This document shows positions 29,078 to 63,819 of a stretch of DNA of 64,000 bases, one piece after another. The notes below the pieces were generated by a model. The model was not told the origin of the DNA, searched no databases, and saw only the letters and a list, made by a program, of their open reading frames with translations. The stretch spans positions 20,426,103 to 20,490,102 of the forward strand of contig NC_087072.1 of the NCBI RefSeq assembly GCF_026151205.1. The letters run 5' to 3'. Numbering within the stretch: the stretch's first letter is position 1; each line of letters begins with the position of its first letter. This DNA comes from Bolinopsis microptera. Taxonomy: Eukaryota > Ctenophora > Tentaculata > Lobata > Bolinopsidae. The translations under genes were made by a program, and so were the position numbers.

Positions 29078-29147
29078 ATGGCTGACGTTCACAGTGACCA
29101 TGAACAGGAAGAGGACATCCTAAAGGGTCAAATCTCGGAATATATAT
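29078..29147 (+). CDS. Alternative first exon feeding the full CH1-CH2 domain
   Basis: The ATG at 29078 gives MADVHSDHEQEEDILK, an acidic leader typical of proteins starting with a tandem CH domain. Two phase-1 donors are possible: G|GTCAAA after 29126 or T|GTACGG after 29147. Both join the CH1 exon at 29716. The second lies in a 23-bp sequence that is repeated at 29178-29200. This would be the canonical start of an actin-binding isoform. Confidence 0.55.
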
Positions 29148-29715
29148 GTACGGTTAACTATAAATAATATGAAGTATGAATATATATGTACGGTTAACTA
29201 ATAACTATAAGTAATATCATGTACGGATAAGGACTTGAACTACTTAGATGTATACAGTTCGAGAAGCGACAAAACTAGCATATCGATTCAAAATTCCGAG
29301 AACGTGTAATTTTGATTACTGTCTAAGATATGTTAACTATATCGAACTTGAGGGACATTTCGTCTCTCTAAGTTTTCGAATTGTTTAAATGTATAAGCGT
29401 ACTAAGTATGGTTTGCCAGGATCAGGAATTGGTACTGTTCAGGAAAGGTTTTTGTCCATTGCAGGTAGGCAAAAAGGTGTAAACCCTGTCAGGAATTGTT
29501 GTCAGTTAATTTCTTTTCGTCGTCAAAAATGTTTTATGTCGCCTACATCTGACCAATAGTTACAGTGCATCTTCGGTTTTAGTTTTCTCCAATTGCATGC
29601 CATGATTCGACCCCTCAAAACTGCACACCAGTTTTGAGGGCATTTAACAGCATATTATTGAATATTCTTTCGTTTTAAATCCGCACTCAAATTTTTAACA
29701 TCTTTCCGTTTTCAG

Positions 29716-29777
29716 TACAAAGGGATAACATCCAAAAGAGGACATTCACCAGATGGGCCAACGTTCAACTGAAACCG
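29716..29777 (+). CDS. CH1 exon 1 (actin-binding signature 1)
   Basis: Acceptor TTTTCAG, phase 1 in; donor CCG|GTATTT, phase 0 out. It encodes VQRDNIQKRTFTRWANVQL. The QKRTFTRWAN core is the first actinin-type actin-binding signature at the start of CH1 in spectrins, plakins, dystrophins and nesprins. Confidence 0.9.
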
Positions 29778-30147
29778 GTATTTAATTTGTATAAATTCAG
29801 TACCTTGATTTACCTAGTACATTAATTGTATTTTGATCCAACATCTGGGCCGGATTTAGAACCCAATCAAAATTTGGTCCAGACGTTTCATGACGTATAA
29901 ACCCTTTGATGATAGTTAACTTTAAATGTCTAATAAAATTTAATAAAATATACACGCTCCCGCCCTATAAAAACTGTCTCGCCAAATATGTTTAATTTTT
30001 CAAACCATCTGATAAAATTAATACACTAGTAGCAGTGCCAGTCCATAGGCTACACTGAACACTGAACTGGCCTCCAAGTCACACCGAACACTTTCTTGTC
30101 AGTGTAGAACGAAATGTATAAAATTTAACGTACTTGTCTCTTCTAAT

Positions 30148-30216
30148 ATGGCCGAAAAAGACTGGTACATGCCTATAGAACTCTTTAAAGTTCTCCAAAT
30201 TCCACTACAGTTGCTT
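30148..30216 (+). CDS. Candidate alternative first exon replacing CH1 exon 1
   Basis: The ATG at 30148 opens 23 codons (MAEKDWYMPIELFKVLQI...) ending at the donor GTAGGC in phase 0, matching the acceptor at 30755. The product would lack the QKRTFTRW signature. It is short, so a chance match cannot be excluded. Confidence 0.35.
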
Positions 30217-30755: not shown

Positions 30756-30845
30756 AGCCAGGTGGAGGTTGAGGATTTGTACGATGATCTGAAGGATGGT
30801 TTGAAACTTATTGCCTTGCTAGAAAATCTTTCTAAGAAGCCTATT
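30756..30845 (+). CDS. CH1 exon 2 (actin-binding signature 2)
   Basis: 90 nt, phase 0-0, acceptor CTTCCCAG, donor GTAAGT. It encodes SQVEVEDLYDDLKDGLKLIA and LLENLSKKPI. DLKDGLKLIALLE is the second conserved actin-binding signature of tandem CH domains. Confidence 0.92.
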
Positions 30846-31015: not shown

Positions 31016-31096
31016 AAAAAGACCCAGAGAGTAAAAATGAACATTCACAAACTACAGAACTTAGAATACGCTCTAAGACATCTCGAAAAAGAAGGG
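31016..31096 (+). CDS. CH1 exon 3
   Basis: 81 nt, phase 0-0, acceptor ATCTCAG, donor GTAAGT. It encodes helix residues MNIHKLQNLEYALRHLEKEG, matching the conserved N-v-x-x-AL-x-F/H-L block of CH1. It joins VKLVNI in the exon at 36165. Confidence 0.92.
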
Positions 31097-34043: not shown

Positions 34044-35987
34044 ATGTTTCACAGAACCTTTACTTGGTTGAGTGAGATGAAACGCAGGAAACTGAGCCGC
34101 CCAAAACACCGTCCCTCAGGAGCAGATATAGGCTCTCTACCATCACCCAGCTCTCTACCATCACCCAGCTCTCTAATTTCATCTCCTGAACCTGGATTGG
34201 AGAAACTACCCACAAGTTTGACGGACTACATATCTCCAGATAAACCTCCGAAATCCCTTTATAAAAAGGTCACCTCGTCCTCTGCTTTGTCTCAAACCCT
34301 TTATAAAAAGGTCACCTCGTCCTCTGCTTTGTCTTCAAAGAGTTCTCACGCTGTTCCGAAACACAACCATCTCAATCTCCAGAATCCCGAGTGTTATGAC
34401 CTTTGTTTTAAAACCGAGGAAGATGATTATCAAATCATTCACGACAAGGGAACAGCATTGACGTCACAGAATAGTGATGACGTCATAACAGTGACGTCAC
34501 AAACCAATGGTTATCATCATGATGCACAGGGTGATAAAGGAGACACTTACCTGCCTCTATCTGATCATGATATACAGAAGATCTGTAGTGATATTGTCTC
34601 CACGCTGGGTAATCTAGGGGCTGATATATCTGATATCTCCAGATCTGGTAAGTATAAACGAGAGGATGTAAACTCAGCAAATCTCGCTGTAAGTAGCAGA
34701 ACTCCAACCCCAGCCTCAGAGGAAGGTGCTGTCTCTCCTGCTTCAACCAGGAACTGTTCCGTCCACACGTTAGAATCCAGTTCTGAACTCTCTCTAGAAA
34801 AACAAACAATGAACAACATTCCACACCAAGTACCCACACATACTTTACCCAGGCAGTTGGTAAACAAAGAGCAGATCAACATGAACTACACTGTTTCATT
34901 GTCAGCTCAACTGTCTGTTGCTCTCTCTACCTCTCTACCGAGCCCTGAAGTTAAGCCTGTCTTATCTTCCATACCTCCTGCTATCACTTCTTCAGATCAT
35001 CTTCCTGCTCATCCTCTCAGTTCCAGTTCAGATAGGTCGAGGTTTCCGCTTGATAAACCTCCTAAACACCCTCAAAAACCACTGAGGTACATCAGAAAAA
35101 GGTCCTTAAAGTTTAAACGAGTCAAGAGGAAAGTGAAGAAACATCAGCACATTGTTCATCCTTCGACTGTGGCTGATAATGCTTACAGGCATGCTTCTGA
35201 AAATGTTCACGGACAATCAAGATCACTTCTAATCAACAAGCTCATCAGTCTATATCGGAAGCTTCAGCAACGTTGCAAATCGTTGGAAGCTACGTCTCCA
35301 AAGCCAAAACTCGACAATCCGCTCAAATCTCAAGATGTCAGCAACTGCACTAATTTGAACGAAATTTCTTCGTTACAGCGGTACATGAACACGTGCTATC
35401 AGATGCTAAAACAACAGCTCAGTACCTACGAAAAGAAGATTTTTTTGGAGAAGGAATTGAAGGTGTTCCAAGTAAACGATATCCCTACACGAGTTGCCTG
35501 CTCTAGAGACGTGGTCAGAAGGAACAGTCTCCCTACTGATACACTGTTCGAGTATCTCTTTGGGAAGGAGCTAAAACCATCAGCTGTCTTCGTGAAATAC
35601 GACCGGCGTGTCAGGATTCCTAGTCAGGAAGTGTGCCGGAGGATTATTGGCGAGGTTCCACCTAGCACCAGGTCCAAAACTACCGTCATCCCACCAAAAC
35701 CAGATCAGACAATCTCCACTCCCCGCTCAGAGGGATCAGCAACTACTAGAAATAACTCTTCCCGCCTACCAGAAAAACAAAACACTACTAAAACTGACAA
35801 TAACCGTCAGTATCCAACCCTGGAGTTCAGTCGGCAGTGTTTCACCTCTTCAGACACAGCTAATCAGTGTAGATCTCAAGTAAAGACGTACAGAGTGACC
35901 GAGAGATTAGAGAGCTCTAATGGGGTGGTGACTGTGAAGGATCACTATGTGACTGCTGTGTCATGGATTAACAACAACAAGATATAT
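34044..35987 (+). CDS. Long alternative first exon, Ser/Pro-rich, spliced into late CH1
   Basis: The best initiator is ATG 34044 (MFHRTFTWLSEMKRRKLSRP); the frame is open further back to 33867 without a better ATG. It runs 648 codons to ...WINNNKIY and can use the donor GTGGGT after 35987 in phase 0, which fits the acceptor at 36164 (VKLVNIS). Features: SLPSPSS repeats; a duplicated YKKVTSSSALS block; long Ser/Thr/Pro-rich disorder; a Lys/Arg cluster (RKRSLKFKRVKRKVKKH); and helical, coiled-coil-prone segments around LLINKLISLYRKLQQR and RYMNTCYQMLKQQLS. If the donor is not used the frame stops at 36018. Such an isoform keeps only the last third of CH1. Confidence 0.72.
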
Positions 35988-36164: not shown

Positions 36165-36263
36165 GTGAAACTTGTTAACATCAGCAATGAAGATATCCTG
36201 AGTGGAAATCACAAGCTGACCCTAGGTCTCATATGGACCATAATTTGCAGATATCAATTCGAG
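36165..36263 (+). CDS. CH1 exon 4
   Basis: 99 nt, phase 0-0, strong acceptor ATTTTTTCAG, donor GTAACT. It encodes [20 protein letters not shown] and [13 protein letters not shown]. The D-I-x-x-G-N-x-K-L-x-L-G-L-I-W-x-I core is the diagnostic C-terminal helix of CH1 in the spectrin/plakin superfamily. Confidence 0.95.
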
Positions 36264-36432: not shown

Positions 36433-36512
36433 AACCTTTCTATGGGAAACGTGACAGGTGGCAAGTTGAAGAGCCTGCTCCTGGCTAAGTGTAACCAATC
36501 TATCATGATCGG
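36433..36512 (+). CDS. CH1-CH2 linker / CH2 exon 1
   Basis: 80 nt, phase 0 in, phase 2 out (donor GG|GTGAGT). It encodes NLSMGNVTGGKLKSLLLAKC and NQSIMI, the CH1-CH2 linker and first helix of CH2. The usual LLLW Trp of CH2 helix A is absent (LLLAK), so CH2 is divergent. Confidence 0.88.
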
Positions 36513-37155
36513 GTGAGTGGGTGTATTGCTTATCTGAACAGTAGCATATTGATAAACTATCTTTAGGAGCACATTGATAATAATTTGTGATACAATTATT
36601 TTCATTCGTGTAAATCGTAAACGCCATTGTATCTTGTAATAAACTTGAAGCAGTAATTAGTCGAAGCCCTATATTCTTTAAGTGTGGAACTAGATTTTGT
36701 CCCCTCTGTTGTTTACCTGACCATGACTCACGATGAGCTGATTATGCTGGGGGTTTTAACCTGGATGTTTATCCTATCTTGTTTAGCTCTCAGTAACCAT
36801 CCAAATCACCTCAGGTAACAAAGTCGTAGAAACTCACTAAACTCACGTCATTCCATCCAGATGCTTAGTCTATTGGTGGCACAAAGTGTGGCTGTCATGT
36901 CTGATGTTACTCACAATCACCGCATATCGCCAAATCTAACCGATCAGCTGGATCCTACTTAAAAACCACTCTTATGCCCTGATAATACCGACACGGTCAC
37001 CCAAACTCCTCTATATCTCAATAATTTTACCTCGACCTCACTTCACCCTCGCCTCACCCTCACTTCTACCTTAACAATCACCAAAAGCCGGTTTGTTTGA
37101 AGCACGAGTGAAGCACTAAACCTCACCCTTCTCAAGAACCAGCTCATCCAGAATA

Positions 37156-37301
37156 ATGCACGCAAAGAAGGCGGCTACAGTGTGGCGGATGAAGGGCAAG
37201 AGGAACGGTAACCACAAACCTAACCTGGGCAGTATAAGTGAAGCTGCTGATGATGATGATGATCAGAGTGGGTACATTGATCCGGACGAGCTGGCTAACG
37301 G
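37156..37301 (+). CDS. Alternative first exon giving a CH2-only isoform
   Basis: The ATG at 37156 opens 48 full codons: MHAKKAATVWRMKGKRNGNH, then an acidic run of five Asp and QSGYIDPDELANG. It ends at GG|GTTAGT in phase 2, exactly the phase of the constant exon at 36433-36512, so it joins the CH2 exon at 37752. The isoform would lack CH1, like the CH2-only forms of dystonin and Shot. Because CH1 carries the main actin contacts, such a protein should bind actin weakly. Confidence 0.65.
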
Positions 37302-37751: not shown

Positions 37752-37818
37752 GTATCCTCCCGCGAAAGCACACAACTTCACCTCATCATTCCAAGATGGA
37801 ATGGCTTTCTGCGCGATG
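37752..37818 (+). CDS. CH2 exon 2
   Basis: 67 nt, phase 2 in, phase 0 out. It encodes (G)YPPAKAHNFTSSFQDGMAFC and AM. Y-P-x-x-x-x-x-NFTSSF-x-DG-x-AF is the conserved CH2 core. Donor GTAAGT. Confidence 0.94.
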
Positions 37819-37991: not shown

Positions 37992-38210
37992 ATTGCTGCC
38001 CACGCTCCTGACGCTATCGACATTGAGGCGTGCAAAGAGATGGAACCAATCGCTCGACACGAGCTTGCATTTACAGTAGCAGAGGAGAGATTTGAGGTGC
38101 ACCAGCTGCTGGAACCCTACGATACAGTCCATAGCCCTGACGAGAAGAGTATCATGACGTACATTGCTGCTCTAACTGCTAAACTACCTGATCTGGGAGT
38201 CCATGTAGAT
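37992..38210 (+). CDS. CH2 exon 3
   Basis: 219 nt, phase 0-0, acceptor CATGTAG, donor GTGAGT. It contains IAAHAPDAIDIEAC, ELAFTVAEERFEVHQLLEP and SPDEKSIMTYIAAL, matching the CH2 C-terminal half (HxPDxID..., AFxxAE...LLDPED, PDEKSIMTYV). It completes the tandem CH domain. Confidence 0.95.
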
Positions 38211-39498: not shown

Positions 39499-39601
39499 GT
39501 TGCGACAATAGACGACTATGCGACCCACGCTCGGGCAGTTAAACAGTTCCTGGGAGACAAGAAGAACAGTTGGGACACCGACCCATTACCCGTCACTGTC
39601 G
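39499..39601 (+). CDS. Post-CH linker exon, start of the helical rod
   Basis: 103 nt, phase 0 in, phase 1 out (G|GTACGT), acceptor TTTACCAG. It encodes VATIDDYATHARAVKQFLGD and KKNSWDTDPLPVTV. It corresponds to the segment that follows CH2 and leads into the plakin-type spectrin repeats. Confidence 0.85.
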
Positions 39602-39630
39602 GTACGTTCCATGTTGACATGATTTTCACA

Positions 39631-40364: not shown

Positions 40365-40568
40365 AGTACCCTGATATACTCGTGCCCCATGTAACACTAG
40401 CAGCAGGAATGAGAAGCATGTTAAACCCGTTTACTAACCCTGGACCAGATTCACCTACAGAGACGATACAAGCTGAGATTGACGCCCTGAGAGCGTTCGG
40501 AGCCAACCAGATGCCTGATAAGCATAAGGAGATTGACTTGCTGGCTAAAGCTTACAAAGAACTTGAAG
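40365..40568 (+). CDS. Rod exon
   Basis: 204 nt, phase 1-1, acceptor GTGACCAG, donor G|GTATGG. It encodes EYPDILVPHVTLAAGMRSML, a linker NPFTNPGPDSPTET, then a helix beginning IQAEIDALRAFGANQ and ending LLAKAYKELE. Helical and acidic, consistent with the beginning of a spectrin-like repeat. Confidence 0.85.
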
Positions 40569-40977: not shown

Positions 40978-41110
40978 CAAAAACTGATTCGGACCAACTG
41001 AAGATCATCACGGACGAAGCGCTCACTCCCAAAGATTTGTCAGAGAGCTTCAACATTGCGCTGAACGCCAAGAAAGGACGAGAACAGAGACTCCTAAATC
41101 TCCTTAAAAA
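40978..41110 (+). CDS. Rod exon
   Basis: 133 nt, phase 1 in, phase 2 out (AA|GTAAGT), acceptor TTCCTTTTAG. It encodes KTDSDQLKIITDEAL, TPKDLSESFNIALNAKKGRE and QRLLNLLKK, a helix-turn-helix piece of a spectrin-like repeat. Confidence 0.87.
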
Positions 41111-41933: not shown

Positions 41934-42148
41934 ATGAACTCATGGTTCGCGCCTCTAAACATAGCGACGCCGCCGGCAGCTGCAGCCGGGTCTGGATCCA
42001 GCAGTTCCTCTAGATCCAGTTCGTTCTCTCTGGTTCGGAGACCCCTGATCAAGAGAACCAAGAGTTTGAGGAAGGCCTCTGTTCGAGCTGCTAAGAAGCT
42101 GAGACCCACCAGTATGATCGATGTACCGGCATGGTACAATAATTTGCT
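41934..42148 (+). CDS. Alternative first exon, Ser/Arg-rich
   Basis: The ATG at 41934 opens 71 codons plus two bases: MNSWFAPLNIATPPAAAAGS, a Ser run, then a basic block (RRPLIKRTKSLRKASVRAAK) and SMIDVPAWYNN. It ends at CT|GTGAGG in phase 2, exactly fitting the acceptor at 43017. GC is well above the flanking intron. The exon has the same Arg/Lys-Ser flavour and the same Leu-at-junction pattern as the first exons at 57456, 59531 and 62418. It would start a CH-less isoform; the basic Ser motifs look like basophilic kinase sites. Confidence 0.62.
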
Positions 42149-43017: not shown

Positions 43018-43348
43018 GAAAGAGAACGAGGGTTCAGACCTAGAGAAGATAAGTGTTGACTGTGGTTCAGTCAAGGAGAAGCTCCGCCAGCTGGCTGGAG
43101 AAGTGAGCCGAGGCAAGGAGACTTGGCCGGATGCCAGCCAGCCCGAGATTAAGCGGGACTGTGACCGTATTGACGGTTTCATCGACGTGATCACAGCAGA
43201 TTTAGATAACATCACGAAGAAGTATAACGAGGTGGCACAGTATGCTACAGATACGGATACTATCACTCCCATTGCAGTTCTGATAGATGAGCAGAACACT
43301 GAGTTTGAGCAGATTGTTGAGGACTACCGAGCCTTCATATCTCAACAT
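43018..43348 (+). CDS. Spectrin-repeat exon
   Basis: 331 nt, phase 2 in, phase 0 out, acceptor CCCTTACAG, donor GTAAGT. It contains KENEGSDLEKISVDCGSVKE, KLRQLAGEVSRGKETWP, CDRIDGFIDVITADLDNITK and IDEQNTEFEQIVEDYRAFIS. Long amphipathic helices separated by short turns indicate a spectrin-like three-helix bundle of the plakin domain. Confidence 0.9.
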
Positions 43349-43707
43349 GTAAGTATTAATAACGTACAAATTACTTCGCTTAATTATCGGCTGTCGTTTT
43401 GTACTTTTTGTAAGAGACACCGAAACACGCACTTTTCCACTTTTTTCGATACGTTAAGTCGTTGTTGCGGTTGTTGTATGTACTCGTTCTAAATGGCGAA
43501 CTTAAAGTCTTCGCATACATGGATTAGAGGGCACAAAGTCGTGTTGACTCGCTCCACTTCTTCCACCAAAATCGTACGAAACGTTTATAGGGTTTGCGTT
43601 TGCCAATTTGTCAAATTATCTGTCTGATCTTGCAATTTCTAAAACAACCTATTTAATAATGCTCTGTCCCTGCTCCGATTTTCCTTACAAGCTCCCAACC
43701 CCCTCAG

Positions 43708-45070: not shown

Positions 45071-45087
45071 AGGACAACATGTTATGG

Positions 45088-48449: not shown

Positions 48450-48558
48450 GTATGTTTAAGTGGTGGAGTTATTGAAATAAGTTCACCTCACTCGTTGTCA
48501 GGGGTTCTGTCTTGTTAACACCCCTTCTCCTCCTCCACCCTCACAACTATTATTTCAG

Positions 48559-49238: not shown

Positions 49239-49387
49239 GAGAGAAGATCCTGCGCCCAGGTGACACAACCCAGATCACCCGTGTTGGTGATAACCTGGTA
49301 TGTGAGGTGAAACTAGACTCCGGCAAGAAGGAACTTCTTCCCATTGTTTACTTCACCAGACCTTACGAACCCCCAATACTCAAGAAG
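49239..49387 (+). CDS. Plakin-type SH3-like exon
   Basis: 149 nt, phase 1 in, phase 0 out, acceptor AATTTGCAG, donor GTATGT. It encodes (G)EKILRPGDTTQITRVGDNLV and a strand-rich part SGKKELLPIVYFTRPYEPP. The order beta-GD-beta-x-V-x-SGK-x-x-LP-x-V-x-F-x-x-P resembles the plakin SH3 (KGDE...W.V...G.E..VPSVCF..PP). Plakin SH3 domains usually lack canonical Pro-ligand residues and pack on the neighbouring repeat. The match is by eye. Confidence 0.65.
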
Positions 49388-49847
49388 GTATGTCTGGTAT
49401 TGTTATTTTAATCAAGATCTCTAGTTATACCCTTTTTTGTTGTTCCTGTTGTGGTTGTGATATCCACTTAACCTCGTTGGGTCTACGTATGTCTAGACGT
49501 GTATAGGGGTCCCTTAATGTAGGACATGGTGTAGTTAACCCACCCCTAACCCTTAATACCCTGGGATATAACATTAATTGACCCCCTCATTGTATACCCA
49601 CGGGGAATCAGAGTTTGGTGGACGTATCAAATATAATTGAGCTCCCTAAATACTCGGCTTGCTTGGGTTGCATGAAACTATTTGTCCACTAATTTATTTA
49701 ATGGGGGCTTATTGTGTAGCATCTAGCTTCACTTGCCAGCAATTCTGCTAATCATCTTGTGAAGCTTTAGTTTCGGCTTTAGTTCTGGTTTTATTTCTGG
49801 CTCTAGTTTTTACACCGTATTTGGATTGTTGCACCACGCTTAAAACC

Positions 49848-49892
49848 ATGCTCGTTATTCATTCCATCCTAATGAGGGAACAGCCTCTGAAA
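49848..49892 (+). CDS. Candidate tiny alternative first exon
   Basis: AAAACCATGC at 49848 begins 15 codons (MLVIHSILMREQPLK) ending at the donor GTAAGA in phase 0, compatible with the acceptor at 50062. Could be chance. Confidence 0.25.
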
Positions 49893-50062
49893 GTAAGAAA
49901 CATTTTGCTGATCTAGAAACACCGAATTAGTTAGTCAGTAGTCTGATAATCAAAATTCATGTTACTGACAATGTTCATGAATTATCTAGCATTCATATAA
50001 CTTGCTACCTTGCTAATTAATTACTTTTTGATTCAATTTTAAAATATAACCTTGCGTTTCAG

Positions 50063-50194
50063 TTCATCATCCACCACAAGCAAAGAGTGGAGGAGATCAA
50101 TGTGAAGGTGGAAGCACTGACCAAGGATCTCATCTCTCAGAAGATATTCGAGGATATGGAGGATGTTCTCATGTGGGAGGACCTTCCTGATGAG
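50063..50194 (+). CDS. Spectrin-repeat exon after the SH3-like segment
   Basis: 132 nt, phase 0-0, acceptor TGCGTTTCAG, donor GTGATT. It encodes FIIHHKQRVEEINVKVEALT, KDLISQKIFEDMEDVLMWED and LPDE: the helix that resumes the spectrin repeat after the SH3 insertion. Confidence 0.88.
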
Positions 50195-50314
50195 GTGATT
50201 TGTTTACTTAATCACGTGACAATAACATCATTTTCCCTAAGGACTCTTTCCAAAATGTGTAATTCTTATTAACCGGAGAAATAAACAACAAACTAACTCA
50301 ATTCCCTCTTACAG

Positions 50315-50474
50315 TTGAGCGAAGACGAAATTGGAGTGATCAAAGCTGAGTGTGAAGCTGCTGTCAAAGCTTGCCAGGAGAGAGGAGATCAGGAGACTGC
50401 TGATGCTCTGACTCTCAAACTTAACCTCGTCATCAGACACACTGCTGATCTCGCAGAAAAAGCTAAACTTTCCA
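50315..50474 (+). CDS. Spectrin-repeat exon
   Basis: 160 nt, phase 0 in, phase 1 out (A|GTAAGT), acceptor CTCTTACAG. It encodes LSEDEIGVIKAECEAAVKAC and ETADALTLKLNLVIRHTADL, two amphipathic helices. Confidence 0.9.
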
Positions 50475-50675
50475 GTAAGTTGGCTTTTACAAGCACTTTT
50501 ATATTAGAGTAATTAGCGAGTTAGAGGCTAATAATCTAGACATTTTGTCTTATTTTCTAAATTCCATAAACAAGGCTTGTTTTTCGTCCAACTCCTTGTC
50601 GGCATTTTTATTTCAATGTCTTATTGTGCGTAACCTGCTAATATCTTACTCTCAACTTCTCTCCTTCCACATCAG

Positions 50676-50827
50676 AGGATATTGGAGATGAAGTTGATGG
50701 AGTAGAGGAGGATATCAAGGTTGAGATGGACTGGGCACATACCACCGAGAAGACAATAGATGATCTTCTGGTGAAGGTGCCAGCCAAGGACCCTCAGGAG
50801 ATCGAGATGAATGTCAGGATCTATGAT
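50676..50827 (+). CDS. Spectrin-repeat exon
   Basis: 152 nt, phase 1 in, phase 0 out, acceptor CCACATCAG, donor GTAAGT. It contains VEEDIKVEMDWAHTTEKTID and DPQEIEMNVRIYD. The W-A-x-x-x-E-x-x-x-D/L pattern is typical of spectrin helix A. Confidence 0.9.
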
Positions 50828-51354
50828 GTAAGTGCTGTCTTTCTGCATTTCCACCGATTAGTTTTAACTACAGTTTAGTTCTCCCGCTGCAAATAGTTTT
50901 AGCATCCTCGTGCATTTTCCCATTTGCTGATTTCTATCAGAGCTATAATAGAAGCAGAATTGTTTATTATTAATAAGCATGAGCTGTAAGCAAACAAACC
51001 AAACTTTTCTCTGAGTATCTTAGCAAATAATTTCATTGAAACTGAATCTTTTCTTTGATAATATTTATCAGCTGCCACAAGTGAGTTGCTTTACATCTTA
51101 GCTTTCAATGCATTTCATCTTCAAAAATATAACTTAAAAGCTTGTTTTTCTTTTTAATAATTAAAATATCTACAGCTTTTAACAGCCAAATTTAAGCTGC
51201 AGCTGCATCCTTTTGAAGACATTTCAGCATGATTTTCCGCCCTTCATGGAACCTGAAATCGTCGTACATAACGTACGGCGCATTATGCATCCGGCGTGCA
51301 TCCCAAAGAAGCAAGAGTGAAGCATGATTTTGATACGTTTTATGATATCTTCAG

Positions 51355-51441
51355 ATTCAACCTTATCAGGAGATAGCTTCCGAGTTCCCGGGTCACGAGA
51401 TGAAACAGAAGGAGATAGTTGTCTCATGGCAGAACATCAAG
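51355..51441 (+). CDS. Spectrin-repeat exon; branch point for alternative 3' ends
   Basis: 87 nt, phase 0-0, acceptor ATCTTCAG, donor GTGAGA. It encodes IQPYQEIASEFPGHEMKQKE and IVVSWQNIK. It can join either the acidic terminal exon at 51831 or the continuing rod exon at 52759, both in phase 0. Confidence 0.88.
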
Positions 51442-51830
51442 GTGAGACAGAATGTACAGTGTACATTGTACTTGTATTATTGTACACTTGCAGCTGTGTA
51501 TATTTAGAGAATTTGATTAATTGCTTTTCCATCGAAATTGTGGCGGTCTTTCAAATCTTATGCTGAGACGGTGAAGTTAGCTCTCAGCTTCTGAGATATC
51601 ATATGCTTTTAATCTTACGCTTATATTTAAACATTTCGCGGAATTTTTGTGGAGTCGCGGGCACGCGTATCTTGATGACCACTTTCCTGCTATCAGTTGA
51701 GTAATATTGAGCTATAATTTACAGCATTTAAACCATCTGCCTCAATAATAATGGACGAATATTCTCGAATATTCTCGACTAATAATGACAGTAGTGTGTT
51801 GACTCCCCTCTCTCTCTCCCTGTTGTGTAG

Positions 51831-51959
51831 AATGACCCGCGAGTAACTGTAATAGATTGGACTGATGACGGGAGCGACAGTGAGGAGGAGGAGGAAGAGG
51901 TTCTGATTGAGCGTTATAACAGTGTGCATGATGTAGAGTACTTTAGAGTAACTTATTAG
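51831..51959 (+). CDS. Alternative acidic 3' terminal exon
   Basis: The acceptor, with a long CT-rich tract ending GTGTAG (51830), opens phase 0: NDPRVTVIDWTDDGSDSEEE, continuing EEEVLIERYNSVHDVEYFRV and ending TY with TAG at 51957-51959. The reading frame fits the preceding exon and has coding-like composition. It would end the protein within the plakin rod with a Glu/Asp/Ser tail that contains CK2-like sites. ATTAAA at 52040-52045 may serve as its polyA signal. Confidence 0.62.
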   Translation, partial: NDPRVTVIDWTDDGSDSEEEEEEVLIERYNSVHDVEYFRVTY

Positions 51960-52039
51960 AGAGTGTTTTAGAGAGTGTGGCAATTTGAGCATGATCGCTG
52001 AGATACCTGAGCCGAGTTGTTTGAGAGAAAGTAATCAGG

Positions 52040-52045
52040 ATTAAA
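52040..52045 (+). terminator. Possible polyA signal for the short isoform
   Basis: ATTAAA, the commonest variant signal, about 80 bp after the stop of the acidic terminal exon. Confidence 0.4.
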
Positions 52046-52404
52046 CACTGATTAGTGTTTGTCCTGAGTCATGTTGTACGGGTAACACGATACACCATCA
52101 TTGCTGCTCGGGACTATAGAGCAGTTAGTTCTCACTAGTAAACCCTGTTGTTTGGGCATGTTGTTGTTTGGTAAACAGCTCTAGAGTTGCTTTACTTACA
52201 AAGAGACTGTTATTATCCTGCGTGGTTAGCAATATAAGAATATTTATTAGATATCACGTGACAGAATTTAAATTTCATAGCCAGTCAGTACACTGTATTG
52301 AGTGGCCGTGAAATTTAAATTTTGTTTTATTTATTATTTGATTAAATAAGGCGGATAGTTCTCCGTATCCTACTCCGTGTTTTTTACAGTTGCTATAAAC
52401 GTTG

Positions 52405-52569
52405 CTTAGGCACAGGGACAAAAGGATTTCGCGGCATGTACGAAATCGCGAAATTTCCCATTCTCCACGACAAATTTTATGTGTAGTTTAATGTATAGCC
52501 TGTTAAATTTCGCGGTATCGCGAAATTTGGCCAAAATAATCGCGAAATCCTTTTGTCCCTGCTTAGGCA
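52405..52569. mobile_element. hAT-type MITE with 8-bp target site duplication
   Basis: The element body 52413-52561 is 149 bp. Its terminal 21 bp (CAGGGACAAAAGGATTTCGCG, 52413-52433) are the perfect reverse complement of 52541-52561. It is flanked by the 8-bp direct repeat CTTAGGCA (52405-52412 and 52562-52569). The CAGGG-type terminus and 8-bp duplication identify the hAT superfamily. There is no transposase, so it is non-autonomous. The centre contains further CGCGAAAT palindromes. Confidence 0.88.
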
Positions 52570-52758
52570 TAACTTCTGTATCTGCTAAGAGATAGATCAG
52601 TTTCTGTATGATTAACAGAGTCAATAGAAGTAGATATCTGTGTGTTTATCAAAATGCAGTTAACCCTGCAGAGGTGGCCGCCTCTATTAGCAGCTCATAT
52701 CCCACATGGTGCTGTAAACCACTACCACAACTAGATCCTAATCATACCCTCGTTCCAG

Positions 52759-52881
52759 GACAAGAACCTCAAGTTGGACAAGGACCTAGATCCCGAGATA
52801 TCTGATATGCAAGATATCATGAGGAATATCAAGAAAAAGAAGAACGATCTCTACGATAAGACCACCATCGAGTTTGTTGAC
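52759..52881 (+). CDS. Rod exon
   Basis: 123 nt, phase 0-0, acceptor TCGTTCCAG, donor GTAAGT. It encodes DKNLKLDKDLDPEISDMQDI and MRNIKKKKNDLYDKTTIEFV, a basic helix of a spectrin-like repeat. Confidence 0.88.
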
Positions 52882-53028
52882 GTAAGTTCCTCTTTAGAGC
52901 TACTAGGATGTTTCCACTTGAGATATTAGAAATATGAGATTCAAAATGTATTTTGAAATCTGAAAATTGAACGTTGAATCCACTTCAAGGTGGTCTGTAT
53001 TGCTATCAAAACTTTATTTCTATTTCAG

Positions 53029-53139
53029 CATGAAATGAAGCCTCTTGAGGTTTGGGTTGACGTAGCACGAAAGAGGGTTGATCAGATCGATGTTGACGGA
53101 GACCTACCCAAACTCCAGAAAATTATTGCAGAAGTAAAC
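53029..53139 (+). CDS. Spectrin-repeat exon
   Basis: 111 nt, phase 0-0, acceptor TCTATTTCAG, donor GTAAGT. It encodes HEMKPLEVWVDVARKRVDQI and DGDLPKLQKIIAEVN, a helix A-turn-helix B arrangement with the typical Trp. Confidence 0.9.
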
Positions 53140-53573
53140 GTAAGTTTCTTATTCTGAGTTAAACTTTTGAGATATGTAGTGATGTAAATACTAGATGTTA
53201 GATACCAGATAATAGATGTTGTCTTATCTAAGATATTATGGTAATAGATAAGTTCTGCCCATACTTCCTCGTGTTATGTTCAAAGTTTTGAAGTGTCATG
53301 TTGTCCTCAAATTATTTTTTCGGCTTGCGATTTATGTTGGTTCAGAACTGTTCTCAAATATTGGACCACAAAAGAATGTCATAAACTGTCCTATTTACAG
53401 ACAGCCTAGCTATGATTGATTGATAAAGGAATGGCAATATAATTATAATGACTTTGGTGATAAAGAAACACATTTAGGATATACGAAGACACTTTCTTTT
53501 TTTTTGAATATTCATTATCAGGTCATAAAAATCAATCATTTAGTTAAGCGTAGTAAAGATAAACACTGCCACT

Positions 53574-53593
53574 CACACACACACACACACACA
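53574..53593. repeat. (CA)n microsatellite
   Basis: About ten CA dinucleotides in an intron. Confidence 0.9.
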
Positions 53594-53904
53594 CTCTACT
53601 TTTTGTTTACTTCGTGCCAACTGTTATTGTTTGTCTGCCTAGTGCTTGTCGTTGTCGGTGTACTTGCCTTTGAAGGAATATGCCACATGTTGAAATTTAC
53701 CCGGATCTGAAACCAGATGTAGGAACTTTAAGTTTAATAATTTCCGAACCTGCTTGCAAATTGCGTTTAGACTAGTACCGTAGCGCCAAAACGTTGTATC
53801 CTCTGATTTAATAAAGTTTATTAATATCAACCTCTAAATTTTTCTCGATAAAACTTATTCGACCCCATCAGTAACTCCTCCTCTGAGTAACTCCTCTTCT
53901 TCAG

Positions 53905-54111
53905 GTGTTCCTCGAGGACATGAAGGAGAAGGAGAAGGACATGGACCGTCTCAACAGCAAATGGGAGGAGGGAGTTAGCCTGGGTCTCGAGAACCCTGAC
54001 ATTGAGAGAAGGATTGCCAAACTGAACTGTGACTGGGATGAGCTTTGTGACCTGACTGAGAACAAAAGCAACACTGCCAATACCGCCCTGCAGAACATGG
54101 AGGATTACGAT
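53905..54111 (+). CDS. Spectrin-repeat exon
   Basis: 207 nt, phase 0-0, acceptor CTTCTTCAG, donor GTAAGT. It contains VFLEDMKEKEKDMDRLNSKW, IERRIAKLNCDWDELCDLTE and KSNTANTALQNMEDYD. The W-x-x-L-x-x-L-x-x-x spacing is characteristic of spectrin helices B and C. Confidence 0.92.
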
Positions 54112-54346
54112 GTAAGTTTCAGCTTTAAAGTAGGGTTGGTTGCGCGGTGGAGACTCCTTTGCGTGGATATCGCACGCTTGCTTAATTGTTAATGTTCCCT
54201 GAGTTATGAAGAGATTTTGGATTGTGCCATGATGTGCCCATTTTGGGATGTGCGACTGATTGAGGGTACATTTTAAATCATATTCTTGATAATGATTTAA
54301 ATTATACATTTTTTTGACTTGTTGTGATCGAAATGAATTTTAACAG

Positions 54347-54367
54347 ACCGATTGGATTGATCAGAAG
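54347..54367 (+). CDS. 21-nt microexon (one heptad)
   Basis: TTTTAACAG precedes and GTATGT follows a 21-base segment encoding TDWIDQK in phase 0-0, between two phase-0 rod exons. Inclusion adds exactly seven residues, one helical heptad, at a helix C/helix A junction. The next exon contains a similar IWIAEKQ. An alternative is a chance pair of splice signals. Confidence 0.5.
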
Positions 54368-54739
54368 GTATGTCATGAATGCCGGCGGCTCGCTCAATCG
54401 CCCCTCTTTAAATTTTTTGGATAAAATATTCTCAAATAATGCATGATTGATTCAAAAGCTTTTGTGATTAAAAGCTGCTCAGATCAACAAAATCAACAAA
54501 ATCGATTGTATGTGTCCATAATCACCTTCTAATCAAGACTGGTTTTATGATTCCCTTCAGCAAATCAGCACTTCTGCACCTTAGTTTCAGTCATATAACG
54601 ACTGTTTATTTATTTCCAAAAATCCTAAAAATCGCATATTCGCATATCATTTAACTCGTACTTGCCTATTAAATAACAAACCATGATTTGATTTGACACG
54701 TGTTCAACGTGAGCCGCGCGCTTACCTACCCCTATTCAG

Positions 54740-54944
54740 GCTGCTCTGGAGTCTGTGGACATATGGATAGCTGAAAAGCAGGACGTGTTGAAAGAGTTCG
54801 CTGAGATCCCAATGGATCGTGATAAGCTTGACAGAATGTTGGGTGAACACGAGATGACTATCCGGGATATTGAGGATAGGAAACCTAACATTGAGGCTAT
54901 CCTGGAGAAGGGAGGCTTGATAGTGGAGGCTCTCAAACACCCTG
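54740..54944 (+). CDS. Spectrin-repeat exon
   Basis: 205 nt, phase 0 in, phase 1 out (G|GTTAGT), acceptor CCCTATTCAG. It encodes AALESVDIWIAEKQDVLKEF, IPMDRDKLDRMLGEHEMTIR and DIEDRKPNIEAILEKGGLIV. Helix A with W-I-x-E, then helix B: a textbook spectrin-repeat pattern. Confidence 0.93.
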
Positions 54945-55212
54945 GTTAGTTGGACATTAGTGGAGTGTTTTTGGAGTGTTATTGGATTGTTTTTGTCTCT
55001 GCCTCTATGACGTGCTGAGTATAACTGATGAAAAAAAGTATATGTTAGAGGTATCCGATTATTTCTAAATGAAATCATTGATTACAATGTTGTAACAACG
55101 GGAAGTAGATATGTTACGATATTATAATTAATGATACAAATATTACAAACAACATGACGCACGTACACTGGAAAGTGAGAAGTGAGTAGTAACTGAGTAA
55201 TACCCACCACAG

Positions 55213-55352
55213 AGACAAAGAAAGCAGCATCTGACAAACTCAACGACCTGGATAAGAACTACATAGAACTGGAGATCAACTGTGCGGCCATCACCAGGAA
55301 ACTGAAAGATGCCCTTGGTGACATGTCCGATCTGGACGATAAACTAAAGGAG
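55213..55352 (+). CDS. Spectrin-repeat exon
   Basis: 140 nt, phase 1 in, phase 0 out, acceptor CCACCACAG, donor GTACGT. It encodes ETKKAASDKLNDLDKNYIEL and CAAITRKLKDALGDMSDLDD. It completes the preceding repeat; the next constant exon in phase is at 63699. Confidence 0.92.
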
Positions 55353-57455: not shown

Positions 57456-58871
57456 ATGAGGGAAAATGAAGAGATTCAGAGAACACACGATGTCAAGAAA
57501 ATGGCACAACTGTTAGAGGAACTGTCGAGTGATACCGACATTGGTACTAACCAAATCAATAGCTCAATTGTCACGAACGATGTGCCGGGTAGAACGTTGC
57601 AGAGCAATTTGGTGACTAGAGCAAATACAATATATTCAATGACACCCAGAGTTATTCGACCAAGACAGAACTCCTTTGTAAAGTTTAAGGAGTTGGACCA
57701 CAATGATTTATTTGTAACGAAGTCCCATGATTCCTACTTTGACGAAAGGGGTGCTAGACTTAAAAAACGGGTGTCATTTAATTTTGAAATTCAGTCGGAC
57801 GACGGGGATACTTGGTCACCTACGGAGAGTAAGGGTGGGTTGAACGATTTTCAGCGAGCTGATTCCACTTTGAAAAGAATAGAAAAGCGATCACAAGTCA
57901 GCAAATCTTTCAAACCAATGCAATCTTTTGATGAATCCATTGAACAGATCGCTTCGCCTGATCAAAAACCTTATATTGTAAAGCCTTTGAAAAGAAAAAT
58001 TTCGTTTGTCTCTTTCGTCAAAAACATTCAAAGGGATAAAAATCGTTGTACTGCCAACTCGTCTTTAAAAGAGTGGAAGAATGGCCCTATCACCACGCGT
58101 CGTAATTCATTCATGAACTTCATCCAAAACCAAAAACCTTCCTCCAGCCGTCCTCCAGTCTGTCCTGCTTCTGCTATTAAAAACCGATCTCTCATCTGCA
58201 GGGATTTTGAGGGCGAGGACTCCCTAAACTCTATCTCTTCTTTCACCACTATGAAGAAACACAACATCAAATCTGATCAGAATTCACCGAACAGACCTCC
58301 TCCTTTGATACAACCCAGACTCAAGCGAAATTCCTCCCGAACATCAGTAACACTTATATTCAATAACCAATATGACAGTCAGTCTTTAAATTCATCATAT
58401 CAAGGATCTAGTTGGAGGAGTTCCAGCTCTTTTTCACGGTCCGACTCGGGTTACACTTCAAATCAGTCCCTCCCTCCGCCTACACCAATCACAGAAACCC
58501 ATCACCACCATCAGCCTTCAACTACTGCCAACCAGCGTCCCAGCATATCCCAAAGTACTGCCACAATAAAACGGCGGCTCTCTCAGATCCCATCCAACCC
58601 CATCTACGAAGATTTCCCCCATGCTCTAGAATCTATCAAGAAAACTAGCAATAGCGATGCTTGTGACCTTGAGAAATTACGTCACCGTACTATGAAATCA
58701 CCGGAAATGATTGATAAGTCCAAGAGGAAGGAGTCTAAGAGCACGCTGATGACGAAAACCAGACGGTTCTCACAGAACGTTTTAGGTCACATTGCCAAGA
58801 AGCCCCGCAAGTCTCAAACCAGGTCCACCAGGTTCATCGGGGTTAACAAATACAGGGCTTTTGAAAATTTG
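57456..58871 (+). CDS. Long alternative first exon (472 codons), basic and Ser-rich
   Basis: The first good ATG is at 57456 (MRENEEIQRTHDVKKMAQLL; the frame is open from 57435). The exon ends ...RFIGVNKYRAFENL at the donor GTAAGT in phase 0, fitting the acceptor at 63698 (VVRWEDES). Apart from the N-terminal helix it is disordered. Motifs include repeated RxNSF-type basic-Ser sites (PRQNSFVKF, TRRNSFMNF, LKRNSSRTS, IKRRLSQIP), a DSGYTS motif at 58443-58460, and a His run (ETHHHHQ). The F-x-GVNK end is shared with the exon at 62418. It would start a spectrin-repeat-only isoform. Confidence 0.78.
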
Positions 58872-60424: not shown

Positions 60425-61792
60425 ATGGAGCCGTTGAAACGTTCTATTTCTATAGATTTGTTGATCGATTCTCGGGCTAGTCACAATTCTCTGGATAGCG
60501 GATACACCTCGGACACTTACCTGTTTTCTCCGGACACTTATCCAGATGTAACCTCTGACCGTAGTCTCACAACAACACTTTCCAATTGTAGTATCAGACC
60601 AGGAATCAAGTTTTCTCCCTCTCTGTTGGGTCGCTGTGTAGATAAACCAGTAGATACCCTCTCACGTGACACATCACGTGACACATCACCTACAGTTTCA
60701 GATAACACTACTCTCACTGAACCCTCCACTACAAACACTACTCCAGATCCTGCTGATGCTAGTTTAGATCCGATCAGCCTATATAGTCTTGAAGCTAAAG
60801 ATGTTTGCTTTTCCGTTCCTGTTCAGAAAGATGACGATAGTCCTGTTGAGACCGGGAAATTTTCGATTGATTCAACTTTTAATGCTGCTTCTTCAAGATC
60901 TTTAAGAGTATCGGTATCATCCCAAAACACTAAAAAGTTTTCAAACCTTGCTAATAAGTTTGAATCTTGTAGTACCCAAGATAAATTAGAGTTTGTTTCT
61001 TACTATGTCGCTACTAATGAACAACGTATAAAGAAGAGATCCATCGCCGAGAAGAGAGCCATCGCTGAAAAGGTTAAATGTGAAAAGGATGAAGTGATTG
61101 TTATGACTATTCCTAAAAAGATTTTTGGGGGAATTTCTGACAAACTAACTTATACCAAACCACTTTCCAAACTTATTGTCAGAATTGAGACCCCAACGTA
61201 TAACCTCGGTCTAAAACCTTATAGACGAAAGCATATGGAGCCTGATTCTTATAGAAGTAATCACGAAGAGCCTGATTCATGCAGTTTAAAGAAAATGCTG
61301 GAGTATGACGAAATCAGTTCACCTATGGTTTCAGACCGTGATAATGGTGAAAATGATAATGATAGCATGTGTAAAGAATATCAGCAACCTACCTCCCTCT
61401 TACTAGACTTCCACTCTTCGTTAGAATCCGTCTGTATTGAGAACTTTTTACTTCAGGGCTCTGAAAACATCTCAGATAAACTAAAAGTCGAGAAGACCCT
61501 GCACTTAAGTGAATGGGGCAGATGGAGAAAGAAATCGATAGATCTTCCAGAGGTTTTTCGTCAACGCAGACCAAATCCGTTGTCCTCTAGATATCTCGGA
61601 AGGGAGATCTCATCCACTACTCATCTCGAAAAACATCCTTGTAAGCTGTTTTTGTCTAAAAGAGAAGAACAAGAGGAGGAAGAAAGTCCTCTTTTGGGGA
61701 GTGCTTCTTATTCTCAACCTGTTTCTCTAGTTTCCGAATCCGTCTCTCCTGTGAAACAAAATTCTAAGAAGAAGAAGATGAAAAAGCGATAA
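60425..61792 (+). CDS. Long Ser-rich open exon (455 codons), alternative first exon or separate gene
   Basis: ATG 60425 (MEPLKRSISIDLLIDSRASH) to TAA 61790. Coding character is clear from length and codon use. It carries DSGYTS (60494-60511), the same motif as the exon at 57456, a tandem SRDTSRDTS, duplicated RSIAEKRAIAEK, and duplicated MEPDSYR/EEPDSCS units. It ends in an acidic run followed by a poly-Lys tail (KKKKMKKR). No strong phase-0 donor is present; the best is GTGAAA after ...SESVSP near 61750, and a GTAAGC near 61640 is in phase 1. It may splice to 63699 through a weak donor or end at its own stop. No known domain. Confidence 0.7.
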   Translation: MEPLKRSISIDLLIDSRASHNSLDSGYTSDTYLFSPDTYPDVTSDRSLTTTLSNCSIRPGIKFSPSLLGRCVDKPVDTLSRDTSRDTSPTVSDNTTLTEPSTTNTTPDPADASLDPISLYSLEAKDVCFSVPVQKDDDSPVETGKFSIDSTFNAASSRSLRVSVSSQNTKKFSNLANKFESCSTQDKLEFVSYYVATNEQRIKKRSIAEKRAIAEKVKCEKDEVIVMTIPKKIFGGISDKLTYTKPLSKLIVRIETPTYNLGLKPYRRKHMEPDSYRSNHEEPDSCSLKKMLEYDEISSPMVSDRDNGENDNDSMCKEYQQPTSLLLDFHSSLESVCIENFLLQGSENISDKLKVEKTLHLSEWGRWRKKSIDLPEVFRQRRPNPLSSRYLGREISSTTHLEKHPCKLFLSKREEQEEEESPLLGSASYSQPVSLVSESVSPVKQNSKKKKMKKR

Positions 61793-62417
61793 CCAATCGA
61801 TACTAGGTTTCTTGGGTTCAACCCACTCTCGTATCTTAAGCACATGGTAATTGGTAGTTCTAACTCCTGTTTTTCACCTCAGTCATTTCATTTTTACGTT
61901 TTGTTGGGTTTTAAGCACACTCCCACTAACTTTATTATTAAATGCGTGATCTGATTTCAGGTGTGGGTGAGCTGAAAGTATGTGATTTGCTTCATGAAAA
62001 TTAAAATTGATGGTACCGGAAAAGTTAATAAAATGCTGTGCATTCTTACAATTATATGAGAGGATACAACTTAGTGATCCTGGCCCAATTTACTGGCTGC
62101 TTAATTTACATGACAAGCATTGCTGGCTCTATAGTTAAATCTCGGGTTTAAATTAATTTTCAGCGTGTGTCCACTAATTGACGGTGCATTAATTCTCTAT
62201 GACAATGTTAACCGGAAACTTTGCCGTGCATTTACTATAGACTGCTTCTCTTTATCCAATTTGTCTCATTTTTAGCGTCAGATTAGGCCATGTGTTTGTA
62301 GATTTGTTTAAAGTTGGCATCTTTTCCACTATTATAGAGGTTCAGCAAAGTTGTGTATAGCGCAGAGGGCGCCTCTCCGCACCCCTCTTAGGAGCATCAT
62401 GCTCTGTGCTGTGATAA

Positions 62418-63332
62418 ATGTTTCTGAGAGGTGAAACATACAAGAGTTCAGCAAATGTTTCCTCAACCACCCGGCCCAACTTCCATAAGTTCCTCTTCAA
62501 GGTTAAGAAAGGAGAGCAAGTTCAGTACAACCCTCCTCTTCGTACTATCGACTTGTCTAACGCTCAAGCTCTTCCCCATTTTCCAAAACCTGCCAAGAGA
62601 AAACAGTCAAAGGATGGAATCATCAAAAGATGGAGTCTCAAAAGATCGTCTAAAGGTAGGAGAAGTGTAGACTCTTCCCCGCCTAAAGTCTCTCGGAGCC
62701 CTTCAATCACATCTCCACCACAGAACTATGTTAAGAGGTGGAGCCTCAAACGTTCAAACAAACGGTTATCAGCTGTTACCAGTGACTGGAGCGCTCTGGA
62801 TGAGCCTGAAGAAGGTGGTTTATCTGAACAACTTGAAGCAAACACCGTTCATACTAGGGTCAGAAGATGGAGTACTGTTAGCAAGCAGAAATCTCTACCT
62901 GCATCCACCGAAAGGAAGCTCGAGGACGAAGATGTTATTGAAGAAAACGAGATGGTTAAGGTAAAGCAGACAAGATCACTACGTTTTAAACCCGTCAAAG
63001 AGGAGCGAGCTTCCTGGCGACTATCTCTCCAAGACGGCTGCAATGGAGCTAATAAAGCTTGTGTCTACCTCCAAGACACCGCGGAAGTATCTCCCTCTGA
63101 AGAATTCCAAGCTCTGAAGCGGACTCTGTCTGGAGCTCAGTTCTACAAGGATAACTCTGCTTTGATGTTTCTTTTTCCTGAGACTGATCCTACTCCGACC
63201 AGCAGATTGGGTTCTTTGATAAGGATGACCAGTTCAAGGAAGTCACAGTTGGTGAAGGAAGAGGAGAGGAAGCTGAAACGATGGAAAAAAATATTTATGG
63301 GAGTTAATAAAAAATTCGTGCTGAAACATTTG
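62418..63332 (+). CDS. Long alternative first exon with RWSLKRS repeats
   Basis: ATG 62418 (MFLRGETYKSSANVSSTTRP) runs 305 codons to ...FMGVNKKFVLKHL and the donor GTTAGT in phase 0, matching the acceptor at 63698. The frame otherwise stops at 63363. It contains repeated basic-Ser motifs IKRWSLKRSSKG, VKRWSLKRSNKR and VRRWSTVSKQK, strong basophilic-kinase or 14-3-3-type candidates. The C-terminal F-M-GVNK-x-x-x-x-x-x-L aligns with F-I-GVNK-x-x-x-x-x-L at the end of the exon at 57456, implying duplicated first exons. It is disordered apart from the basic helix near the end. Confidence 0.78.
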
Positions 63333-63698
63333 GTTAGTGGTCAGAAGTATTGTTTGATAATTTGAGCCTCAACAAATTCAGATAATTTACTTAGTATTTT
63401 TTATCGCCATGCCACTTTGTTAGTCTTATACCATCGGATAAGTTCTATGGTATGATAGCTATTAATAGAATTGTACTACATTATGTCCGACGAGCTCAGA
63501 AGCCATTTTACATTTTCTCCAATTGTAATTTTTCCTCAGTAAATACATCCGTGTGATAATGGTGTAAAATTGATTATTATTAACTGGGAAGTGGGAATCG
63601 GGAGGGGTACTATTTGGTAAATTTCTACTGTTTTCTTAATGCGAACTATACGTCCCCTTATATTGTTTGATCACACCATGATAATGTATTTCTCTCAG

Positions 63699-63819
63699 GT
63701 CGTCAGGTGGGAAGATGAAAGCAAGGACTACATCCAAAAACAGGAGCCTGTTAGTGAAGATCCTGAGAAACTCAAGGAACAGATTGCCAATCTCGGCGAG
63801 TTCAAAGAGGCTGTTGATG
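63699..63819 (+). CDS. Spectrin-repeat exon, common acceptor for the downstream first-exon array
   Basis: 121 nt, phase 0 in, phase 1 out (G|GTAAGT), acceptor TTCTCTCAG. It encodes VVRWEDESKDYIQKQEPVSE and KLKEQIANLGEFKEAVD. The W at helix A position and the L-x-x-L spacing fit a spectrin repeat. In phase with 55352 and with the donors at 58871, 59647 and 63332. Confidence 0.92.

Follow-up and report, generated by a model that had tools for sequence, protein, structure and literature searches.

The window analysed here is a stretch of 64,000 nucleotides (nt) from the ctenophore Bolinopsis microptera (assembly GCF_026151205.1, contig NC_087072.1, positions 20,426,103 to 20,490,102 of the forward strand). 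Between positions 29,078 and 63,819 it carries, on the forward strand, part of one large cytolinker gene, here called the host gene. Several introns of this gene hold ATG-led frames, three of them hundreds of codons long, which appear to serve as alternative first coding exons (Table 1).

The host gene is a spectraplakin in layout

The exons taken as constant are those of a 26-exon model (29716-63819) built from sequence, from which a possible exon at 51831-51947 was left out. Joined together, they encode 1,301 amino acids with neither a stop codon nor a break of phase, and 21 of their 26 acceptors score at least 6 bits. The spliced CH1 and CH2 domains match spectrin, plectin and MACF1 structures with E values of 4e-51 to 1e-47; in that query one junction residue was a placeholder, and without exon 29716-29777 and the segment at 29078 the value was 5e-44. 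Addition of this segment together with exon 29716-29777 raised the best PDB match of the CH pair from 153 to 177 bits. This exon had been omitted from an earlier note on this DNA, as had the open reading frame (ORF) C of Table 1.

Further downstream, the exons from 63699 match the spectrin-repeat family PF00435 above the cut-off (6.1e-8), the match beginning at profile position 16, while a match at 53887 (2.8e-4) lies under the cut-off by itself. A GAS2 (GAR) domain with a score of 98.7 bits was found on the same strand at C1:20570803, 80.7 kb beyond the window, and would belong to the same transcript as the window exons. About 1.4 kb after it, one predicted exon encodes two SGIP motifs, which we take to be EB-binding sites of the SxIP type. 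In the plakin region the best PDB sequence match was the BPAG1 plakin domain, with a weak E value of 0.22 for a query without exon 46651-46766 and with some junction residues missing. Pfam listed neither a plakin nor an SH3 family in that region, and an SH3-like stretch at 49239-49387 was seen by eye only; a plakin domain is only weakly supported. By eye, with no search made, the predicted downstream exons showed no EF-hand pair before GAS2. As judged from its sequence, the host gene, with CH1-CH2, a plakin-like region, spectrin repeats, GAS2 and an SxIP tail, is a spectraplakin in layout, and the cytolinker assignment of the earlier note is borne out by the 26-exon model, the CH pair, the spectrin repeats and GAS2. 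Padded protein searches gave no match at E ≤ 0.01 in the lengths scanned, which suggests that full-length isoforms of the host gene may be absent from the database.

Long intronic frames with coding character

Outside the constant model, the forward strand of the 28-64 kb region holds five ORFs that reach 300 codons or more: those termed A, B, C and D, and one encoding a G-protein-coupled receptor (GPCR). The longest ORF on the reverse strand of the same region encodes 170 amino acids. Simple arithmetic from the composition (about 39% GC) leads to an expectation of some 1e-5 chance ORFs of at least 300 codons in 36 kb, both strands included. The five main frames of the earlier note, starting at 34044, 37156, 41934, 57456 and 62418, were all recovered in the sequence; each is led by an ATG and ends in a donor that is in phase with the next constant exon (0, 2, 2, 0 and 0, respectively). 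Its statement that several of these exons span hundreds of codons holds for A, B and D.

Codon use was scored by a leave-one-out test, in which the tables were trained on the other three of A to D, instead of a model trained on the spectrin-repeat exons, which gave values near zero for A, B and C that we attribute to amino-acid bias. Each of the four frames scored between +0.17 and +0.24 bits per codon, with lower values in the other frames, and the score turned negative past the donor for A, B and D alike. In B, the 30 codons leading up to the donor scored 0.20. The test misses real genes: the GPCR ORF was negative, and the score of the constant exon 36165 was reached by 22% of the null windows. 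The possibility that the long frames are chance ORFs was rejected on their length, their codon use and, for B, conservation. A common origin of A to D by duplication was also rejected: local alignment of the frames in pairs did not clearly exceed shuffled controls, and only the anchored tails of B and D stood out.

Exon B has a conserved start and a conserved donor

Homologues of exon B were searched for with a query of 663 residues, made of the exon (472 residues, 71.2%) and 191 residues of the constant part. Among 5,786 candidates, six proteins, presumably from ctenophores, were obtained at E ≤ 1, with identities of 95, 69, 57, 57, 54 and 46%; each covers 71 to 72% of the query, i.e. exon B alone. 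The column of the start methionine is invariant in the seven aligned sequences, four of the six homologues beginning exactly there and the other two a few residues earlier. At the opposite end, the tail RFIGVNKY.AFE.L is invariant in the seven sequences except at two columns and lies in the most conserved block of the exon (0.91). It is directly followed by V-S in 7/7 sequences, and the homologous proteins end 1 to 6 residues beyond this pair. In the window, V-S corresponds to GTA AGT, which is the donor itself. Because the start methionine and the donor, the latter judged from protein, are both conserved in all seven sequences, we read B as an alternative first exon, an assignment that is well supported. 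The exon is present as a single copy in the genome according to a DNA search, and the codon score of the 11 codons preceding its ATG was −0.23.

Several short motifs also coincide in the alignment: an RVxF-like motif in 7/7 sequences, a second one in 6/7, SxIP in 6/7 and DSGxxS in 7/7. Column shuffles matched the observed number of motifs in 0/500 cases for RVxF, 13/500 for SxIP and 0/500 for DSGxxS. We assume that they correspond to PP1-docking, EB-binding and phosphodegron sites, respectively, which they resemble. The predicted structure of B is disordered, with a mean pLDDT of 39.9 and no usable fold, and shows a low-confidence helix at the tail (ORF residues 476-485).

Exons A and D

The codon score of exon A (+0.18 per codon) falls to −0.32 in the 63 codons before its ATG and to −0.33 after its donor. 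This donor scores 4.7 bits and has other phase-0 donors in its vicinity; the exon can equally be spliced to 36433, skipping the symmetric exon 36165. The stop codon of its frame lies 145 nt before this constant exon, so close that a separate gene would hardly fit, and no AATAAA or ATTAAA occurs in the interval.

In exon D, which has a codon score of +0.24, the frame is closed by a TAA immediately before the ATG. Its stop codon ends 334 nt before the constant exon 63699, again with no AATAAA or ATTAAA in between, and a protein search revealed a single copy in the genome. Counted back from the junction, its tail IFMGVNKKFVLKHL aligns without gaps with the tail of B. Of 200,000 random pairs with matching composition, 17 scored as high as this one, in a test performed post hoc, since the likeness had been noticed before it. 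Length and codon use indicate that A and D are coding, and their phases fit; their use as alternative first exons is likely, with fair to good support.

Table 1. Exons and open reading frames of the host gene in the window (all on the forward strand; donor scores in bits)
Feature	Position	Strand	Properties
Alternative first exon A (likely)	34044-35987	+	648 codons; ORF of 721 codons; phase 0 to 36165 or 36433
Alternative first exon B (well supported)	57456-58871	+	472 codons; phase 0 to 63699; donor 8.7
Alternative first exon D (likely)	62418-63332	+	305 codons; phase 0 to 63699; GVNK-x6-L tail, shared with B
Probable alternative first exon	37156-37301	+	48 codons; phase 2 to 37752; donor 6.7
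Probable alternative first exon, no CH domain	41934-42148	+	71 codons; phase 2 to 43018; donor 5.5
Weak candidate for first coding exon of CH1+CH2 isoform (MADVHSDHEQEEDILK..)	29078-29147	+	phase 1 fits 29716; donor 3.4
ORF C, outside the isoform set	60425-61789	+	455 codons; own stop; same intron as B and D
Constant exon, CH1 helix A	29716-29777	+	phase 1 to 0; gain in PDB score together with 29078 segment
Constant exon, CH1	30756-30845	+	Pfam CH 2.5e-4, under cut-off by itself
Constant exon, CH1	31016-31096	+	Pfam CH 0.016, under cut-off by itself
Constant exon, end of CH1	36165-36263	+	PDB match and joined model; symmetric
Constant exon, CH2 helix A	36433-36512	+	phase 0 to 2; PDB match and joined model
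Constant exons, CH2	37752-37818 and 37992-38210	+	Pfam CH 2.1e-7 for the second; joined model
Constant exons	39499-39601, 40407-40568 and 40978-41110	+	joined model
Constant exons, plakin region and spectrin repeats (n=15)	43018-55352	+	stop-free and in phase in joined model
Constant exon, proposed partner of B and D	63699-63819	+	starts within spectrin repeat

Nested genes within the host introns

Nested intronic genes are abundant in the ctenophore Hormiphora, where 2,357 of them were counted in 1,654 hosts, many being parallel to the host (PMC8527503). The long intronic ORFs could accordingly be independent genes on the same strand, each ending at its own stop codon. The ORF at 44105-45067 (+) is such a gene: it is intronless, encodes a rhodopsin-type GPCR with an E value of 1e-6 to the dopamine D1A receptor, lies in the intron 43876-45344 and has an AATAAA 18 nt past its stop. 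ORF C fits the same description and is probably another nested gene. No phase-0 donor of at least 4 bits exists in its frame, and poly(A)-like signals follow its stop at 145 nt (ATTAAA) and 235 nt (AATAAA). It shares the hexapeptide DSGYTS with exon B and gave no match at E 0.1 against the PDB.

Exons A, B and D depart from this pattern. An own stop followed by a poly(A) signal and a separate product characterises the GPCR ORF and none of these three: like nested genes they are coding sequences lying in introns on the strand of the host, as shown for the GPCR and probable for C, but their frames run into donors of matching phase close to a constant exon or, in the case of B, into a conserved donor. 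The invariant tail of B continues in all seven sequences into a V-S that reads as a GTNAGY-like donor, and the tails of B and D are alike at the same distance from the junction. The first AATAAA or ATTAAA after the stop of B is at 408 nt. The lack of such signals after the stops of A and D points in the same direction, although over such short stretches it would be the likelier outcome by chance. On this evidence we consider it improbable that the long frames as a whole are nested genes, a reading which, like spliced-leader trans-splicing, had gone unweighed in the earlier note in spite of both being common in a ctenophore (PMC8527503).

Two further long frames were seen farther downstream. 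A 596-codon ORF in a downstream intron (L013:2043-3830, +) looks by eye like a flavin amine oxidase and is a possible same-strand nested gene. Late in the host gene, a 1,600-codon ORF (L015:9919 to L016:4718, +) with a phase 0 end may be a giant internal exon or an alternative first exon.

Short frames

In codon use the frame at 37156 outscores each of 396 overlapping null windows, and the frame at 41934 each of 67; both are probable alternative first exons as judged from sequence. The former contains, at 37240-37300 (+), inside the CH2-coding part, an EF-hand-like loop, DDDQSGYIDPDEL (Pfam EF-hand 0.009, under the cut-off). Its product would not be the CH2-only isoform that had been anticipated, because it would lose the CH2 helix-A exon.

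The rule leading from an ATG to a fitting donor, which the seven shorter candidates of the earlier note (29078, 30148, 39144, 45918, 48354, 49848 and 59531) follow, was run over the remaining 24.3 kb of intron, with the reverse strand and 40 Markov shuffles as controls. It yielded 36 frames, whereas the reverse strand gave 25 and the shuffles 31.9 ± 6.1, 9 of the 40 shuffles reaching 36. These numbers, and codon scores within the null for five of the seven, indicate that the candidates are, as a class, at chance level and probably chance frames. Some observations stand against this. Frames of at least 30 nt with a donor of at least 6 bits are in mild excess (15, versus 7 on the reverse strand and 7.6 ± 3.3 after shuffling), and only 1 of 40 shuffles reaches that number. 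The frames at 29078, whose codon score is reached by 2.1% of the intron windows, and at 39144 exceed about 98% of these windows in codon use, but have no fitting donor above 3.5 bits; conversely, 45918 has a strong donor (10.5 bits) that fits exon 46651 in phase, and no codon signal, in a test that also misses the real constant exon 36165. The claim that most large introns carry an alternative start has to be reduced: from exon 29716 to exon 63699 the model has eight introns that exceed 1,200 nt, and a supported start was found in four of them, or in 4/7 if the possible exon 51831-51947 is counted.

Proposed alternative first exons in place of the CH pair

Taken together, the data are best explained by one spectraplakin-type gene in which the exons at 34044, 57456, 62418 and probably also at 37156 and 41934 would be alternative first coding exons, replacing part or all of the CH pair; we give this reading a probability of roughly 0.7. 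B has strong support and A and D have fair to good support, while that for anything beyond the two probable short exons is weak. The proposal of alternative first exons made in the earlier note stands best for B and lapses for most of its short list.

A transcript would start at the alternative exon, either from a local promoter or through spliced-leader trans-splicing, and this exon would be joined to the next phase-matched constant exon. The resulting isoform, its lead segment standing in for the actin-binding CH pair or a part of it, would bind actin weakly or not at all and would keep the spectrin rod and the microtubule-binding end. B and D would enter near the start of a spectrin repeat, where their shared tail GVNK-x6-L may complete the first helix of the repeat. 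From its conserved RVxF, SxIP and DSGxxS motifs, the B isoform would be a linker on the side of the microtubules that does not engage actin and is controlled by phosphorylation.

A number of observations weigh against this reading. The fit of phase is weak evidence by itself (1 in 3 per exon), long ORFs of up to 619 amino acids also occur on the reverse strand beyond the window, and a nested gene on the same strand is present within the host gene. The donors of A, D (4.4 bits) and the exon at 41934 score below 25 of the 26 constant donors, and codon use over the 30 codons that precede the donor gives only 0.03 in A and 0.04 in D. The tail of A matches neither that of B nor that of D (0 and 1). 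In an unanchored search with a 30-column profile (224 kb, six frames) D was the best non-self match, but with an E value of 2.6 (32 for the best single domain), and a 45-column profile gave D at E 10. The six homologues of B are known as proteins without visible gene context; none of them extends into the spectrin repeat, and for this reason the junction of B to 63699 is only inferred.

Other observations concern the type of exon. For exon D, the in-phase donor at 62960 (7.3 bits) outscores the one at 63332, and phase-0 acceptors lie at 62502 (5.0 bits) and 62724 (7.2 bits), so D could be an internal exon. Upstream of or within other frames acceptors also exist: one in phase 0 at 33879 (4.8 bits) before the ATG of A, and one of 5.2 bits at 37137 that would turn the frame at 37156 into a symmetric 2-2 cassette of 165 nt (37137-37301) between 36512 and 37752. 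Five of the 26 constant acceptors are also below 6 bits, in favour of such exons, and the other 21 are stronger, against them. That some of the exons are internal cassettes or alternative last exons is nevertheless unlikely: the first 377 nt of the B ORF contain no phase-0 acceptor above 3.4 bits and its methionine is invariant, the frame of D is closed right before its ATG, and the codon score of A is negative upstream of its own.

Promoters or a spliced leader

Instead of separate promoters, the 5′ ends could be created by spliced-leader trans-splicing just upstream of the alternative exons, within long transcripts. This is a variant of the alternative-first-exon reading and compatible with it. 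In Hormiphora the leader is present on 56% of the Iso-Seq reads (PMC8527503). In the B. microptera genome, a cluster of sites resembling spliced-leader RNA was found at C13:12811469-12894453. Three of them read AATTTGAG at the leader end, followed by GTAA (L042/L049, which are one site, L046 and L048), and score 44, 46 and 52 against the Hormiphora leader; 300 random 80-mers did not exceed 22, and three other matches scored 19 to 26. The likeness is in keeping with a ctenophore source. Genome-wide, the 21-base end of the leader with at most three mismatches occurs 36 times on the forward and 23 times on the reverse strand, versus 17 and 29 for the control, and a variant pattern 24 and 12 times, versus 7 and 5, with a cluster on C13. 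In 224 kb at the locus, the Hormiphora leader had no match with fewer than five mismatches to its last 20 bases.

Suitable acceptors are found at 62392 (8.4 bits), 26 nt before the ATG of D, and at 33839 (6.6 bits) before A. Against their use, acceptor-like sites are common, another ATG lies between 62392 and 62418, and no acceptor above 3 bits is present in the 60 nt preceding the B ORF. Trans-splicing is consequently possible as the source of the 5′ ends, with the odds clearly below even. Still more tentative, and rather unlikely in our estimate, is a wider proposal: a ctenophore spectraplakin gene with at least six N-termini, several of which would be long, disordered modules of a regulatory kind, carrying motifs for phosphatase docking, EB binding and degrons and retained from an ancestor common to several lineages of ctenophores, each N-terminus possibly made an independent 5′ end by leader trans-splicing in the introns of one giant transcript. 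If true, N-terminal isoforms would arise without separate promoters, by the same machinery that may free nested genes.

Comparison with known cytolinker genes

In plectin, splicing of the alternative first exons into exon 2 keeps the actin-binding domain. Its gene, PLEC, has a dozen alternative first exons giving different N-termini to one cytolinker; they are short segments, twelve of which splice into exon 2 (PMC8468861). The host gene resembles PLEC in having several alternative first exons in one cytolinker gene, and differs in that its lead exons lie in different introns, measure up to 648 codons and would remove part or all of the CH pair.

Dystrophin is likewise a CH-plus-spectrin-repeat protein. 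Four internal promoters (Dp260, Dp140, Dp116 and Dp71) with unique first exons produce N-terminally truncated isoforms of dystrophin, which belongs to a different family. The residues unique to its full-length forms number just 11, 3 and 7, and the available part of that paper makes no mention of long disordered lead segments (PMC7372313). The view of the earlier note that the density of starts would be exceptional overlooks PLEC and dystrophin (PMC8468861; PMC7372313). In Drosophila, Shot-PC is a natural isoform without CH1 and with its own lead sequence, which according to the authors may inhibit residual actin affinity; the accessible text names no lead exon of 300 to 650 residues (PMC9320987). 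Plectin, Shot-PC and dystrophin show the same principle. Lineage and the length of the lead exons set the host gene apart, as does the way in which these exons are distributed among several introns and would take away CH parts from more than one entry point.

A literature search, for which subscription journals were mostly out of reach, returned no paper joining spectraplakin with ctenophores and none joining spectraplakin, alternative promoter and first exon. The first plakin domain has been placed in Cnidaria, in a paper whose main text, as far as available, does not contain "ctenophor" (PMC9145010). If transcripts confirm the alternative first exons, the use of alternative starts to switch the actin-binding end of a cytolinker on and off would already have been elaborate in a lineage that was among the first to branch off within the animals, and relatives would share at least one of the replacement segments. 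The locus would also lend itself well to asking whether N-terminal isoforms can arise by spliced-leader trans-splicing.

Sequences upstream of the host gene

An upstream coding sequence at 18517-27515 (+) contains WKK..LKKT repeats followed by several copies of a GG.Y.L.L...W repeat, both seen by eye; five pieces of it gave no Pfam family over the cut-off. Also upstream of the host gene, 22329-24626 (-) and 24391-26406 (+) are head-to-head copies with the same translation, a reverse transcriptase with a GIY-YIG domain. The copy on the reverse strand has Pfam values of 2.7e-5 and 0.003, which are under the cut-offs; the two copies look Penelope-like to us.

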